From positions 1 to 20,876 of the IMG/VR virus record IMGVR_UViG_3300025425_000198: 20,876 nt of DNA. The stretch is one strand, 5' to 3'. The stretch comes from a virus. Position numbers and translations under genes: made by a program. Shown here one piece after another: positions 3,595 to 15,497 of the stretch. The notes beneath the pieces are model-generated. The model made no database searches. It had not been told where the DNA came from and saw only the letters and a list, made by a program, of their open reading frames with translations. Every line of letters begins with the position of its first letter. The first letter of the stretch is position 1.

Positions 3595-4914
3595 ATGACA
3601 TTTAAAACAAATCCTTGGGATTTCATAGTACATCTTCAGAGCGACAATGGTAAAACTTTTAAACAGAATGCCATCCGCGTCGAAGCTGAAGCAGGAAATG
3701 ACGAATTGTTTGCAGGGTTTAATTTAGCAATGAATCCTCTTATCACGTTTGGAGTTAAAAAAATTCCTTGGTCTACACAATCATTTGATTCACCTACGTT
3801 ACCATGGGATGACTTTACTAATTTAACAGATGACCTCGAATCTAGAAGGTTGACGGGACATGCAGCAAGAGATGCGATAATCGAAGTTATGCAAAAGTCT
3901 GGCAAAGATCAATGGGACTTCTGGTATCGCCATATTCTTATTCAGGATATGAGATCAGGATTTACTGAATCCACAGTCAACAAGGCAGTAAAAGAGGCGG
4001 GTATGCTAACAGAATATGGTATTCCTGTTTTTGCTTGTATGCTTGCTCATGATAGTGCAAAACACGAAAAGAAAGTTGTAGGTAAAAAGCAAATAGAAAT
4101 CAAGCTCGATGGAGTTAGAGTTCTGACTGTAATCAAGGCCAACAAAGGTGGTATCATCCAAACCACTCGCAATGGCCGTGAATTGCTTAATTTTGGCCAC
4201 ACGAAGACGGAATTGTCGGCACTAGATTTTCCTGTTGATATGGTACTTGACGGTGAAATTATGTCGAGCAACTTTCAAGACCTGATGACTCAAGTCAATA
4301 GACAAAGTGATGTGGATGCTGGTGATGCTGTGCTTCACGTATTTGATATATTGCCCTTGGATGAATTTCTTGCTGGAAAAAGTCTATTAAAACAAGCCGA
4401 ACGCTCCGTTGTTGTAGAATCATATAACAAATCATATCTATTCAAACACATTAGATTTTTATCTAGTGAAGTGGTTGATCTTGATACTGACGCAGGTCGG
4501 GCAAGATATAAAGAAATTAATAAACAAGCAATCGAGGGTGGATATGAAGGAATCATGCTTAAAGACCCAGAATCATTTTATGAATGTAAACGGTCTTCAA
4601 GTTGGTTGAAATTAAAACCATTCATAACGCTTGACTTGAAGGTGATAAAGCTAGAAGAAGGCGAAGGAAAATATAAAGGCACCCTTGGTGCACTTGTATG
4701 CAGTGGTGTTGAAGATGGTAAAGAGATCTTGGTTAGTGTTGGGTCAGGGTTGACTGACGAGACTCGCGATCTTATATGGAATAGCGATAACCCTGTTGGT
4801 GTCGTAGAGATAAAAGCAGACGCCATCACTCAGTCTAGAGATAAAGACACTTATAGTTTAAGATTTCCGCGATTCGTCCGATTCCGCGGCTTTGATGAAC
4901 AGGAGAAAATGTAA
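3595..4914 (+). CDS. 30: ATP-dependent DNA ligase (T4 gp30-like)
   Basis: 439 residues. It seals nicks in double-stranded DNA during replication and repair, using ATP. Motif I is KLDGVR with the adenylated Lys170. Also visible are TRNGREL (183-197 region), LDGEIM (motif III, about 218-223), HVFDILP (248-254), EGIMLK (motif IV, 318-323) and WLKLKP (motif V, 337-342). The C-terminal OB-fold follows (residues ~345-430). It is somewhat shorter than T4 gp30 (about 487 residues). ATG 3595 follows the membrane-peptide gene by ten bases. The next gene overlaps its stop by one base (TAATG), so the two are translationally coupled. Confidence 0.93.
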   Translation: MTFKTNPWDFIVHLQSDNGKTFKQNAIRVEAEAGNDELFAGFNLAMNPLITFGVKKIPWSTQSFDSPTLPWDDFTNLTDDLESRRLTGHAARDAIIEVMQKSGKDQWDFWYRHILIQDMRSGFTESTVNKAVKEAGMLTEYGIPVFACMLAHDSAKHEKKVVGKKQIEIKLDGVRVLTVIKANKGGIIQTTRNGRELLNFGHTKTELSALDFPVDMVLDGEIMSSNFQDLMTQVNRQSDVDAGDAVLHVFDILPLDEFLAGKSLLKQAERSVVVESYNKSYLFKHIRFLSSEVVDLDTDAGRARYKEINKQAIEGGYEGIMLKDPESFYECKRSSSWLKLKPFITLDLKVIKLEEGEGKYKGTLGALVCSGVEDGKEILVSVGSGLTDETRDLIWNSDNPVGVVEIKADAITQSRDKDTYSLRFPRFVRFRGFDEQEKM

Positions 4915-7503: not shown

Positions 7504-7523
7504 ATGGGTAGAATATATTTTGG

Positions 7524-7599
7524 GGTGTGATAGGTGTAATTGGAAGCATGCATGACTGTGACTCATGAGGGTTGGGTTCGAAACCCAGATTACACCCCA
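7524..7599 (+). tRNA. tRNA-His (GTG)
   Basis: Anticodon loop CTGTGAC. Extra G at -1 opposite C73, the mark of His tRNAs. Acceptor pairs GTGTGAT with ATTACAC; CCA encoded. Base 8 is A rather than T. Confidence 0.85.
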
Positions 7600-7619
7600 A
7601 AATATATTAAAAGAATTAT

Positions 7620-10618: not shown

Positions 10619-10773
10619 GTTCCCGTAGTCTAATTGGATAGGCACGTTGCAATAAGTCGATATAAGGTAACGTGTATATTACATGATAACAAATAATGCG
10701 TGTATGGTAAAACTGGAAATCACACGATTCTTCTAAAGTCAAGTTCAGGGTTCGAGTCCTATCGGGAATGCCA
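10619..10773 (+). tRNA. tRNA-Arg (TCT) interrupted by 80 nt
   Basis: 5' half: acceptor GTTCCCG, TA, D-arm GTCT-AATTGGAT-AGGC. 3' half: loop CTTCTAA (anticodon TCT), TTCGAGT T-loop, acceptor CGGGAAT pairing fully with the 5' strand, G73 and CCA. Between the halves an 80-base stretch is bounded by the direct repeat CACG (10643-10646, 10723-10726). Taking out 80 bases leaves 75, a normal tRNA. The T-stem is imperfect. Confidence 0.65.
10647..10726 (+). other. insertion within tRNA-Arg
   Basis: 80 bases with no reading frame. Stems form at each junction: ACGTTGC/GTAACGT across the 5' one (10644-10650 with 10667-10673) and CGTGT/ACACG at the 3' one (10699-10703 with 10722-10726). Too short for a group I or II intron. 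Part of it (GGTAAAACTGGAAATC) looks like a second D-arm, so tRNA recombination is another origin. Confidence 0.5.
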
Positions 10774-10777
10774 AAAC

Positions 10778-10933: not shown

Positions 10934-10947
10934 AATTTAGAATATTG

Positions 10948-11112
10948 TGTCAGGGTGTAGGTTAGCTTGGTAAGTCACGTTTATAGAGCATTTAGTCCGG
11001 GCGTAGCTGAGCTTGGTTTAGTACCGCGTTTGGAACGCGGAGACGCTGGTTCGAATCCAGCCGTCCTGACTAAATGCTTTAGATGGATGGTTCGAGTCCA
11101 ACCATCCTGACA
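10948..11112 (+). other. outer tRNA-like structure enclosing tRNA-Pro
   Basis: A 10-bp helix TGTCAGGGTG/CATCCTGACA closes the segment. Inside its 5' half are T8-A9 and a D-arm (GGTT...AGTC with AGCTTGGTA). Inside its 3' half is a T-arm (GATGG TTCGAGT CCAAC). In place of the anticodon arm stands a complete tRNA-Pro on an 11-bp helix (AGCATTTAGTC/GACTAAATGCT). CCA is not encoded. Confidence 0.55.
10997..11069 (+). tRNA. tRNA-Pro (TGG), nested
   Basis: Anticodon stem CCGCG/CGCGG, loop TTTGGAA, T-arm GCTGG TTCGAAT CCAGC, acceptor CCGGGCG/CGTCCTG with one C-T mismatch, A73. CTA stands where CCA would be. Lies inside the structure 10948-11112. Confidence 0.82.
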
Positions 11113-11128
11113 GAATATTTTAAATTAA

Positions 11129-11644: not shown

Positions 11645-12196
11645 ATGGAAATAAAATACACTGTTTATAAGATTTCAAATCAAATCAATGGCAAGTTCTA
11701 TATTGGAACACATAAGACCAAAAATTTGAACGACAATTATATGGGTTCTGGAAAATACTTAAAATACGCTCAGGACAAACATGGATTAGACAAATTCACA
11801 AAAGAAATCTTATTCGTTTATGACAACCCAGAGGAAATGTTTAACAAGGAATCTGAAATTGTTAATCTTGATTTCATTGCTGAATCTAATACCTATAACC
11901 TAAAATTAGGTGGTTCTGGTGGATGGGACTATATCAACTCTAATGAGAAATTGAGAAAACTTAAAAATCAAAAGGCAATGCGCATAGCTAATGAAAATGG
12001 GGCATCAGAAAAAGCTAATGCCCGACATTATAAGACTCAAGCTATATATAAAGAATCTCCTAAGATATGTGAATATTGTCATGATGCTATATCTTATAAA
12101 AAACGAAAGAACAAATATTGTAGTTCTAGTTGTGCCGCAACGGTGACCAATGCAACTAGAACATTGAAAAGAAACAAAGGTAGTGACACCCATTAG
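11645..12196 (+). CDS. GIY-YIG homing endonuclease
   Basis: 183 residues. Residues 5-21 ([17 protein letters not shown]) carry the GIY and YIG motifs, with Glu at about 69-71 as the metal ligand and [13 protein letters not shown] (84-96), as in T4 Seg-type free-standing enzymes. A C-terminal zinc-finger-like set, Cys142-x2-Cys145 and Cys159-x3-Cys163, follows a basic linker and probably binds DNA. The last codons and the stop (12194-12196) lie within tRNA-Tyr, which starts at 12179. The gene sits between tRNA-Gly and tRNA-Tyr behind a TATAAATA box. It is probably mobile, targeting the tRNA region of related phages. Confidence 0.9.
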
Positions 12197-12264: not shown

Positions 12265-12270
12265 AATTCT

Positions 12271-12357
12271 TAGAGATCCGGTTCGAGTCCGGCATGTGGT
12301 GTAATATGGAACACGCGATAGAATAAAGGTTCGGCTACCTTCTTAAAAGGTCCACCA
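12271..12357 (+). pseudogene. scrambled tRNA-like fragment
   Basis: An orphan T-arm (CCGG TTCGAGT CCGG, 12278-12292) comes first, then a D-arm-like hairpin GTGT AATATGGA ACAC (12299-12314), then GGTTCGGCTACC and an end TCCACCA. No 5'/3' acceptor match was found. The order T-arm then D-arm is that of a permuted or recombined tRNA. Confidence 0.35.
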
Positions 12358-12362
12358 AATTT

Positions 12363-12522: not shown

Positions 12523-12593
12523 GGCTCGGCCGCTGGGCGGTGACGACACTCCAAACGTTGTCTTGTAAGGTTCAATTCCTTATCGGGTCGCCA
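12523..12593 (+). tRNA. tRNA-Trp (CCA)
   Basis: Loop CTCCAAA, G73 as in Trp tRNAs, T-arm TAAGG TTCAATT CCTTA, CCA encoded. Acceptor has three G-T pairs; D-arm CCGC-TGG-GCGG has a three-base loop and no 8-9 linker. Confidence 0.82.
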
Positions 12594-13517: not shown

Positions 13518-13590
13518 GCTCTCGGCAACTGGATGCAACTCGGCCTACGAAGCTGGGAATTTATAGGTTCGAGTCCTATCGGGAGCGCCA
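13518..13590 (+). tRNA. tRNA-Arg (ACG)
   Basis: Acceptor GCTCTCG/CGGGAGC, stem TCGGC/GCTGG, loop CTACGAA, T-arm ATAGG TTCGAGT CCTAT, G73, CCA encoded. A34 would need conversion to inosine by host TadA. D-arm is short (GCA ACTGGA TGC). Confidence 0.87.
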
Positions 13591-13791: not shown

Positions 13792-14310
13792 ATGAATATA
13801 TTTTATCTTAGCAATGATTACGAGATTGCTGCAGCAATGCATTGTGACAAACATTGTGTTAAAATGATTCTTGAATATGCACAGATGTTATCAACTGCCC
13901 ATCGTATACTCGACGAAGGTACAGAATTATCAACTGATCTATATAAAATCGCTCATAAAAACCACCCATCAACTATATGGGTGCGAGAAAACAAGCAACA
14001 ATATATGTACATGTATAACTTGTTTCAATCCCTTTCGGAGCAATACACGGCACGTTACGGCAAGGTACATTTGTCTTGGAGAAAATTAGGTACCTTGCTT
14101 GGAAAATTACCGAAAGGTATTCCAGATGCAGGTTGGCGCGAACCGCCACAGTGTATGCCAGATTACTGCAAAGGTACTTCTGCTGTCGATGCATACCGTA
14201 AGTATTATGTCGAAGAAAAAAGTTACTTCGCTGCATGGAAATTTAATACAGTGCCTGTTTGGTATACGGCAGGTCTCAACAAAAATAATATAGGAAAGGA
14301 GTTACAATAA
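13792..14310 (+). CDS. conserved phage protein (CDKH-VKM family)
   Basis: 172 residues. CDKHCVKMILEYAQMLSTAH (18-37), YKIAHKNHPSTIWVREN (51-67), YTARYGKVH, CMPDYCKG and AYRKYYVEEKSYFAAWK match a conserved family that I know from T4-like phages (xCDKHVVKMxLExAQxLSTxH...HKNHPCxxWARES...YRYGKxH...YR.YY...K..FAKW). I have seen it labelled as pyrimidine-dimer glycosylase-like, but no resemblance to T4 DenV can be read here, so the function is open. It is coupled to RtcB by a one-base overlap. Confidence 0.75.
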   Translation: MNIFYLSNDYEIAAAMHCDKHCVKMILEYAQMLSTAHRILDEGTELSTDLYKIAHKNHPSTIWVRENKQQYMYMYNLFQSLSEQYTARYGKVHLSWRKLGTLLGKLPKGIPDAGWREPPQCMPDYCKGTSAVDAYRKYYVEEKSYFAAWKFNTVPVWYTAGLNKNNIGKELQ

Positions 14311-15497
14311 TGAAAGTTTTAACTGGCCGCGGCCATGTAGTAAAGGCTTGGTGTGATGGTGTTGATTTTGCGGAAAACACAAAAGAACAATTAATGAACC
14401 TTGCTGATATGCCATTCATACACAAATGGATTGCGTCTATGCCTGATGCCCACTTAGGTAAAGGTTGCGCTATAGGAACAGTTCTGGCCACCAAAAAAGC
14501 GATTATCCCGTCTGCAGTTGGCGTTGACCTTGGCTGCGGCATGCAAGCCGTTAAAACGTCTTTAACTGCGTCTGACTTGCCTTTTAACCTAAAATCGATG
14601 AGATTAGACATTGAAGCGGTGATTCCTGTAGGACAAGGGAAACATAACGTCCAGAAATTACCCAAGGAAGTTATCGATACTTGGAATAAACATTTAAGTT
14701 CAGGCTTTGATAATTTGCGTGAATTTGCCCCTGTCGAGAAGACAAACAATATTGCTCATCTAGGCACCTTGGGTGGTGGAAATCATTTCATCGAAGTGTG
14801 TATCGAGAAAGCAGACAATTCGGTGTGGGTAATGCTACATTCAGGTAGTCGTGGTGTGGGTAATGCTATTGGCAGATACTTTATTGAGAAAGCAAAGTTG
14901 GAAATGGAGAAGTATTTTATTTCTTTGCCAGACGAGGACTTGGCATATTTACCAGAAAACTCGACCTACTTCGATCAATATATCGAAGCCGTTGACTGGG
15001 CACAAGAATTCGCGAAGATGAATCGTGCTTTGATGATGAAAAATGTTTTAGAAGTGCTTGAAAAACATACACAACCTTTTACGGTAGATGAGTTGACTGT
15101 TGACTGTCATCATAACTATGTACAGAAAGAAAACCATTACAACGAAAATGTGTGGGTTACTCGAAAGGGTGCGGTTTCTGCTAAGAAAGGGCAATATGGT
15201 ATCATTCCAAGTAGCATGGGACAGAGATCATTCATAGTTAAAGGCTTGGGAAACAAGGAATCTTTCCACAGTTGTAGTCATGGCGCCGGTCGGGTTATGT
15301 CCAGAACCCAAGCGAAGAAATTAGTAACTATGCAGCAACACGAAGAAGCAGTTCGTGGTGTGGAGTGTAGAATAGACGAAGGTATTATAGACGAGACTCC
15401 AAGTGCGTATAAACCTATCGATGATGTAATGGCAGCTCAGGCCGATTTGGTAGAGATTGTACATGAAATTAAACAAGTGCTTTGTGTAAAGGGTTAA
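14310..15497 (+). CDS. rtcB: RNA ligase RtcB
   Basis: 395 residues (E. coli RtcB about 408). It joins RNA ends carrying 2',3'-cyclic or 3'-phosphate to 5'-OH ends, using GTP and Mn2+. Metal ligands: Asp73-Cys76 in VGVDLGCGM, the GGGNHFIEV motif (about 155-163, His159), His177 in HSGSRGVG. CHHNY (266-270), SMGQRSFIVKG (302-312) and SCSHGAGR (321-328) with the guanylated His324 complete the active site. PDAHLGKGCAIG (45-56) is also typical. The start overlaps the preceding stop (TAATG), with aaaggag at 14296-14302. In archaea and animals RtcB is the tRNA-splicing ligase; in bacteria it repairs RNA. Here it follows a tRNA cluster with interrupted genes. Confidence 0.96.
   Translation: MKVLTGRGHVVKAWCDGVDFAENTKEQLMNLADMPFIHKWIASMPDAHLGKGCAIGTVLATKKAIIPSAVGVDLGCGMQAVKTSLTASDLPFNLKSMRLDIEAVIPVGQGKHNVQKLPKEVIDTWNKHLSSGFDNLREFAPVEKTNNIAHLGTLGGGNHFIEVCIEKADNSVWVMLHSGSRGVGNAIGRYFIEKAKLEMEKYFISLPDEDLAYLPENSTYFDQYIEAVDWAQEFAKMNRALMMKNVLEVLEKHTQPFTVDELTVDCHHNYVQKENHYNENVWVTRKGAVSAKKGQYGIIPSSMGQRSFIVKGLGNKESFHSCSHGAGRVMSRTQAKKLVTMQQHEEAVRGVECRIDEGIIDETPSAYKPIDDVMAAQADLVEIVHEIKQVLCVKG

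Follow-up and report, generated by a model that had tools for sequence, protein, structure and literature searches.

In the nested locus at 10948–11112, one tRNA lends its acceptor, D and T arms as a frame around a complete tRNA-Pro gene. The locus lies in the window, the whole 20,876-nt stretch of viral DNA analyzed here. The outer tRNA is probably a duplicated copy of the same tRNA-Pro. We consider it fairly likely that, after this duplication, the stalked inner copy works, while the outer copy is a non-decoding remnant and at most a scaffold.

Architecture of the nested locus

The window, a fragment of a large phage seen so far only in metagenomes, contains a cluster of more than 20 tRNA genes (about 7.5–13.7 kb). 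Everything from position 3792 onward recurs with 100% identity in an IMG/VR contig of 198,785 bp (G001), the terminase of which belongs to the phrog_2/phrog_5989 large-subunit families. ARAGORN calls a tRNA-Pro(UGG) at 10997–11070, and RF00005 matches the inner gene with 54.6 bits, compared with a gathering score of 29; both recover a cloverleaf with the UGG anticodon. The identity elements of tRNA-Pro are C1-G72 and A73. Both are present in the inner tRNA, as C10997-G11068 and A11069, and the only mismatch in its acceptor is one C.U (10998/11067). Besides this inner copy, no tRNA-Pro was found in G001.

The enclosure of a whole tRNA-Pro by outer acceptor, D and T arms had been described in an earlier note made from the sequence alone, and it is borne out by ARAGORN, RF00005 and the shuffling control given below. 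Specifically, the outer acceptor helix (10948–10957/11103–11112) contains the 10 bp that had been claimed, with one G.U, and beyond one mismatch it gains another 7 bp (10940–10946/11114–11120). The outer D arm (10960–10976) has 4 bp, including two G.U, and a loop with GG. The outer T arm (11086–11102) has the loop TTCGAGT and one A.A in its stem, which is the only mismatch in the outer arms. The inner tRNA is held on a stalk of 13 bp; the earlier note had recognized this helix but counted 11 bp. A possible outer anticodon stem of 5–6 bp, with two G.U, leaves zero nucleotides for a variable loop (Table 1). As also noted before, neither tRNA has an encoded CCA (A-CTA after the inner acceptor, A-CAG after the outer one), unlike most neighboring tRNAs in the cluster.

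Table 1. Coordinates of the nested locus and of the RNA ligase gene in the window
Feature	Position	Strand	Details
Outer acceptor extension, 5' strand	10940..10950	+	3 bp, one mismatch and 7 bp with 11110-11120
Outer tRNA-Pro, 5' half	10951..10977	+	Acceptor CAGGGTG; T8 A9; D arm GGTT-AGCTTGGTA-AGTC; A26
Possible outer anticodon stem, 5' strand	10978..10983	+	CGTTTA; pairs with 11080-11085 in the minimum-free-energy fold
Stalk, 5' strand	10984..10996	+	Pairs with 11069-11081
Inner tRNA-Pro(UGG)	10997..11069	+	ARAGORN, RF00005; C1-G72, A73; no encoded CCA
Stalk, 3' strand	11069..11081	+	Pairs with 10984-10996; 11069 doubles as inner discriminator A73
Possible outer anticodon stem, 3' strand	11080..11085	+	Abuts the T stem directly
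Outer tRNA-Pro, 3' half	11086..11110	+	T arm GATGG-TTCGAGT-CCAAC; acceptor CATCCTG; A73; no CCA
Outer acceptor extension, 3' strand	11110..11120	+	Pairs with 10940-10950
RtcB-family RNA ligase	14310..15497	+	Just after the tRNA cluster; PHROG 1075, E 9e-146

When the flanks were dinucleotide-shuffled and the inner tRNA was kept, a detector of the nested structure found it in 0 of 20,000 sequences, and the acceptor and T arm alone appeared in 1 of 20,000. The fold energy of the nested locus with its flanks is −82.3 kcal/mol, compared with −49 kcal/mol after shuffling (z = −8.6). This z-score is mostly due to the inner tRNA and the helices, and the flank-only shuffle is the sharper test. Folding had been suggested as a check. 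The outer arms exceed chance in the shuffling control, but the minimum-free-energy (MFE) structure leaves the outer D and T arms unformed. Instead, bases of the outer D loop pair with those of the outer T loop within a single long hairpin. A fold made to include the two outer arms lies about 12 kcal/mol above the MFE, in a model that takes in neither tertiary contacts nor modifications.

Origin of the two copies and their probable roles

The outer halves are 79–83% identical to the inner halves, and 65–71% identical to the tRNA-Pro of a relative (G003; locus L276, minus strand), in which the genes follow the same order and the DNA is roughly 70% identical. Because the outer copy is closer to the inner copy than to the tRNA-Pro of the relative, the two appear to be duplicates that arose within the lineage. 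BLAST searches with the outer halves (38 and 33 bases) give matches of low significance, yet those ranked highest for each half are annotated tRNA-Pro genes. The outer 5' half matches annotated Synechococcus phage tRNA-Pro at 95% over 20 nt, which at E = 6 in a whole-collection search is suggestive only, and the outer 3' half resembles annotated tRNA-Pro 3' halves, likewise suggestive only at E of about 1.

At the corresponding place, between tRNA-Phe and tRNA-Asp, the relative has a single ordinary tRNA-Pro(UGG) with CCA. Because this syntenic relative has one ordinary tRNA-Pro, the nested state is specific to the lineage, and the simplest reading is that it is derived. In a third lineage (L197, L211), most of the tRNA cluster is gone through loss. 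A search for further lineages with the cluster by its conserved small-ORF pattern found only three lineages, and searches with RtcB, DNA ligase and terminase added no relative with nesting at the same site.

Other irregular genes are present in the window and the relative. A tRNA-Arg(UCU) at 10620–10774 has roughly 75 extra nucleotides between the D arm and the anticodon arm, while its counterpart in L276 is normal. Two tRNA-like genes with a reduced D arm (12523–12590 and 13518–13590), missed by ARAGORN, are Trp-like (D loop of about 3 nt) and Arg-like; they are in part >90% identical to L276, and the acceptor of the Trp-like gene has compensatory changes. On the minus strand of L276 (5853–6171 and 9296–9965, reverse-complement coordinates), tRNA-Arg and tRNA-Val each have a second copy of their 3' half beyond small ORFs, as would result from a gene entering a tRNA gene whose 3' end was then rebuilt. 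Immediately past tRNA-Tyr in the window are a lone T-arm-like hairpin and rearranged tRNA-like sequence (12265–12362). A GIY-YIG-type homing endonuclease gene (11645–12196) lies within the cluster. At 1228–2861, a Hint/intein-like N-terminal part and a C-terminal intein-like end flank separate P-loop protein ORFs (phrog_5268), possibly a split or broken intein.

The explanation we favor starts from what is legible in the DNA itself, namely the nesting, the similarity of the two tRNAs, the single syntenic tRNA-Pro of the relative, and an anticodon loop that excision cannot restore. A tRNA-Pro gene would have been duplicated in the phage lineage, and one copy, on its 13-bp stalk of inverted flanks, would have come into the anticodon arm of the other. 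The 5' end of the inner tRNA would be cut by RNase P and its 3' end by a 3' endonuclease such as RNase Z, and the host would add CCA. No CCA-adding enzyme encoded by the phage was found, so the host must supply this step. The outer copy would keep its acceptor, D and T arms but, having no anticodon loop, would have lost decoding, and would be at most a stable hairpin scaffold that holds and insulates the inner tRNA. We infer the insertion event, the processing enzymes and their order, the activity of the inner tRNA and the inactivity of the outer one.

This explanation is supported by a canonical inner tRNA beside which the 198-kb contig yielded no other tRNA-Pro, by an outer tRNA with a T-stem A.A and without variable loop and anticodon, from which excision restores no good tRNA, and by another phage locus (L400) with a stalked and nested architecture. 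Stalked tRNAs are also an established form in the lineage, since tRNA-His in both the window and L276, and one tRNA-Asn in L276, are stalked. The tRNA-His of the window (7510–7612) has a perfect acceptor extension of 13 bp that sequesters its encoded CCA. Its L276 counterpart has an extension of 14 bp, in which one change is compensatory on both strands and another affects one side only, and the tRNA-Asn (minus strand) has one of 13 bp. Several observations weigh on the other side. The outer copy has decayed only slightly, with a perfectly paired and extended acceptor and with the D-loop GG and the T loop kept, which is less than a pseudogene would lead one to expect and fits recent origin and selection alike. 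The two records with the locus are 100% identical and offer no covariation, CCA addition depends on the host, and pairing that extends beyond position −1 would be unusual for RNase P.

The outer arms might instead have been selected as a scaffold or processing guide, which we regard as rather unlikely. RNase P and 3' processing would mature the outer ends, and an exonuclease-resistant double-tRNA hairpin would release the inner tRNA-Pro. The intact outer acceptor (10 + 7 bp) and the retained T loop and D-loop GG are consistent with such selection, as is L400, an unrelated locus that stands alone between ORFs and folds into the same architecture as its MFE. However, the MFE of the window leaves the outer D and T arms unformed, and the two records with the nested locus are 100% identical, so that there is no variation between copies to show selection.

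The earlier note had suggested that the outer ends left by excision could be joined by an RNA ligase, and RNA-joining enzymes are indeed encoded. RNase P and RNase Z cleavage leaves 3'-OH and 5'-P ends, which Rnl2-type ligases seal. RtcB acts on a 2',3'-cyclic phosphate or 3'-phosphate and a 5'-OH, and is unsuited to the ends made by the RNase P/RNase Z route. Besides its RtcB (PF01139 match), G001 has two Rnl2-family proteins (PHROG 548 RNA ligase, E <= 3e-55; under the NCBIfam curated Rnl2 cut-off), so a ligase with the matching end chemistry is present in the same genome. Moreover, excision restores canonical tRNAs at four other loci (L345, L364, L369 and L341). In the window, however, the joined outer tRNA has a long hairpin at the position of the anticodon loop and no variable loop, and exact removal of the inner tRNA does not restore a canonical tRNA with a 7-nt loop. 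ARAGORN reads the joined outer tRNA at best as a class-II tRNA-Leu, with a weak score (102.3) and an anticodon stem that is mismatched at two positions, and a spliced, decoding outer tRNA was rejected for the window. ARAGORN in its intron modes (-i/-io) reports no intron-containing outer tRNA at default thresholds; an overlapping 'His' call is a chance fusion of neighbors. Because excision leaves neither anticodon loop nor variable loop, a joined decoding product is unlikely in this phage, and we judge the joining of the outer halves into any second functional RNA here to be improbable. The outer tRNA is most likely non-decoding, as a remnant or scaffold.

It is very improbable that the locus is a recent, functionless recombination product of an often-rearranging tRNA cluster, in which both copies may be decaying. 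Rearranged tRNAs and duplicated tRNA 3' halves in the cluster and its relatives would be in line with this, as would the disrupted tRNA-Arg of the window beside the normal one of the relative; against it stand a canonical inner tRNA, with no other tRNA-Pro found, and the recurrence of similar nesting in unrelated phages. A chance origin of the nesting is ruled out by the shuffled flanks and the reversed-sequence control (0 in 9.4 Mb), and, as two separate records agree over 17 kb with an identical nested locus, chance resemblance or an assembly artefact is practically excluded.

Nested tRNAs in other viral contigs

The earlier statement that no phage was known with a nested arrangement does not hold, because several further phage loci were found in sequence data. 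The nesting signature was two T-arm motifs 15–45 nt apart, and a scan of viral contigs for paired T arms gave at least 120 stretches. A strict detector asked for four outer elements (acceptor, D arm, anticodon stem, T arm) and two inner ones (acceptor, T arm); a relaxed version was used alongside. Distinct matches among the loci collected numbered at least nine (strict) and at least seven (relaxed), with none by either detector in 9.4 Mb of reversed sequences. In total, at least about six further nested cases are present in viral contigs. Default tRNA finding reported only the inner tRNA in the window, L341, L301 and L400.

The nearest match to the window among the loci found is L400, from a 251,780-bp phage with one Rnl1-like and two Rnl2-like ligases. 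Its acceptor, D arm, T arm, helix of roughly 16 bp and inner tRNA-Arg(CCU) are all in the MFE. In L345, L364, L369 and L341, the anticodon loop is interrupted by a tRNA or a 44–46-nt mini-tRNA, and without this insert the sequence becomes a canonical tRNA again: Ile(UAU) (score 125.4), Lys(UUU) (119.0), Asn(GUU) (120.5) and Arg(UCU) (124.4), respectively. Restoration in L341 requires that the inner tRNA-Phe keeps ACCC at its 3' end. The Rfam tRNA model covers the whole interrupted genes of L345 (51.8 bits) and L364 (54 bits). L301 has a tRNA-Ile with CCA in the anticodon loop of another tRNA, and no boundary yields a plausible 7-nt loop.

L355 passed the detectors but was rejected, as its 'outer' 5' half belongs to a neighboring tRNA-Leu. 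The single match to minihelix nesting in prokaryote genomes is a false positive. L276 6175–6300 and the extra-T-arm matches L358, L390, L319 and L387 have the appearance of partial insertions.

The mini-tRNA inserts of L345 (about 4254–4297) and L364 (minus strand, about 3776–3819) are 44 nt with CCA. The mini-tRNA-like element itself measures 40 nt: a 7-bp acceptor helix is combined with a linker that includes GGGTAT and a T arm whose loop reads TTCAACT. The element also occurs outside tRNAs at four other viral loci (L464, L482, L467 and L515). Across the six elements, GGGTAT and GGTTCAACTCC are invariant, and all 12 pairs form in every sequence, 10 of them covarying on both sides; the elements were picked by motif and pairing, and the complete pairing is partly by construction. 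No Rfam family was reported for the mini-tRNA-like element.

We tentatively propose, as an unproven possibility, that these loci are phage tRNA-like introns, cut by tRNA end-processing enzymes and sealed by a ligase, and that the window is a derived, stalked form. Whole tRNAs or 44–46-nt mini-tRNAs, the latter with an acceptor helix, a D-loop-like GG, a T arm and often CCA, would interrupt a different tRNA at its anticodon loop. The tRNA end-processing enzymes, and no splicing endonuclease, would remove the insert, and a 3'-OH/5'-P RNA ligase would seal the outer halves, yielding two RNAs per gene. Excision and joining would fit L341, L345, L364 and L369 much better than the window. None of the three ligase families was found in the contigs of L341, L301, L345, L364 and L369, which may be fragments; this result counts against the need for a phage-encoded ligase.

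Relation to known tRNA arrangements

No published description of a nested tRNA-in-tRNA gene was found among the open-access papers covered. A whole tRNA that interrupts a tRNA gene is a nested form to be placed beside the intron-containing, split and permuted forms, and standard tRNA finders report it as a single tRNA. If the anticodon-loop cases are spliced, tRNA maturation enzymes together with an RNA ligase of the phage would form a splicing pathway that needs neither a splicing endonuclease nor a ribozyme, and phage RNA ligases would gain a role beyond repair.

In phage T4, those tRNAs that lack an encoded CCA, tRNA-Pro among them, depend on RNase BN/Z and nucleotidyltransferase of the host. 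T4 tRNA-Pro resembles that of the window in having no encoded CCA and in lying in a tRNA cluster, but it is made from a tandem dimer precursor, whereas the tRNA-Pro of the window is nested.

Intron-containing, split and circularly permuted tRNA genes are known in archaea, eukaryotes and red algae (PMC4090602, PMC3978253), with the interruption in or near the anticodon arm, as in the window. Unlike in these genes, the intervening sequence of the window is a complete tRNA; no bulge-helix-bulge is seen in the window, and no splicing endonuclease is implied. The engineered tRNA scaffold (e.g. PMC3753655) similarly carries an RNA on an extended anticodon stem, but the arrangement in the window is natural and its cargo is another tRNA. 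After anticodon-nuclease cleavage, T4-type repair relies on polynucleotide kinase and RNA ligase (e.g. PMC10264068, PMC3874168), and phage ligases join tRNA halves broken in the anticodon loop; that system mends damage, whereas the joining considered here would follow removal of an encoded insert.
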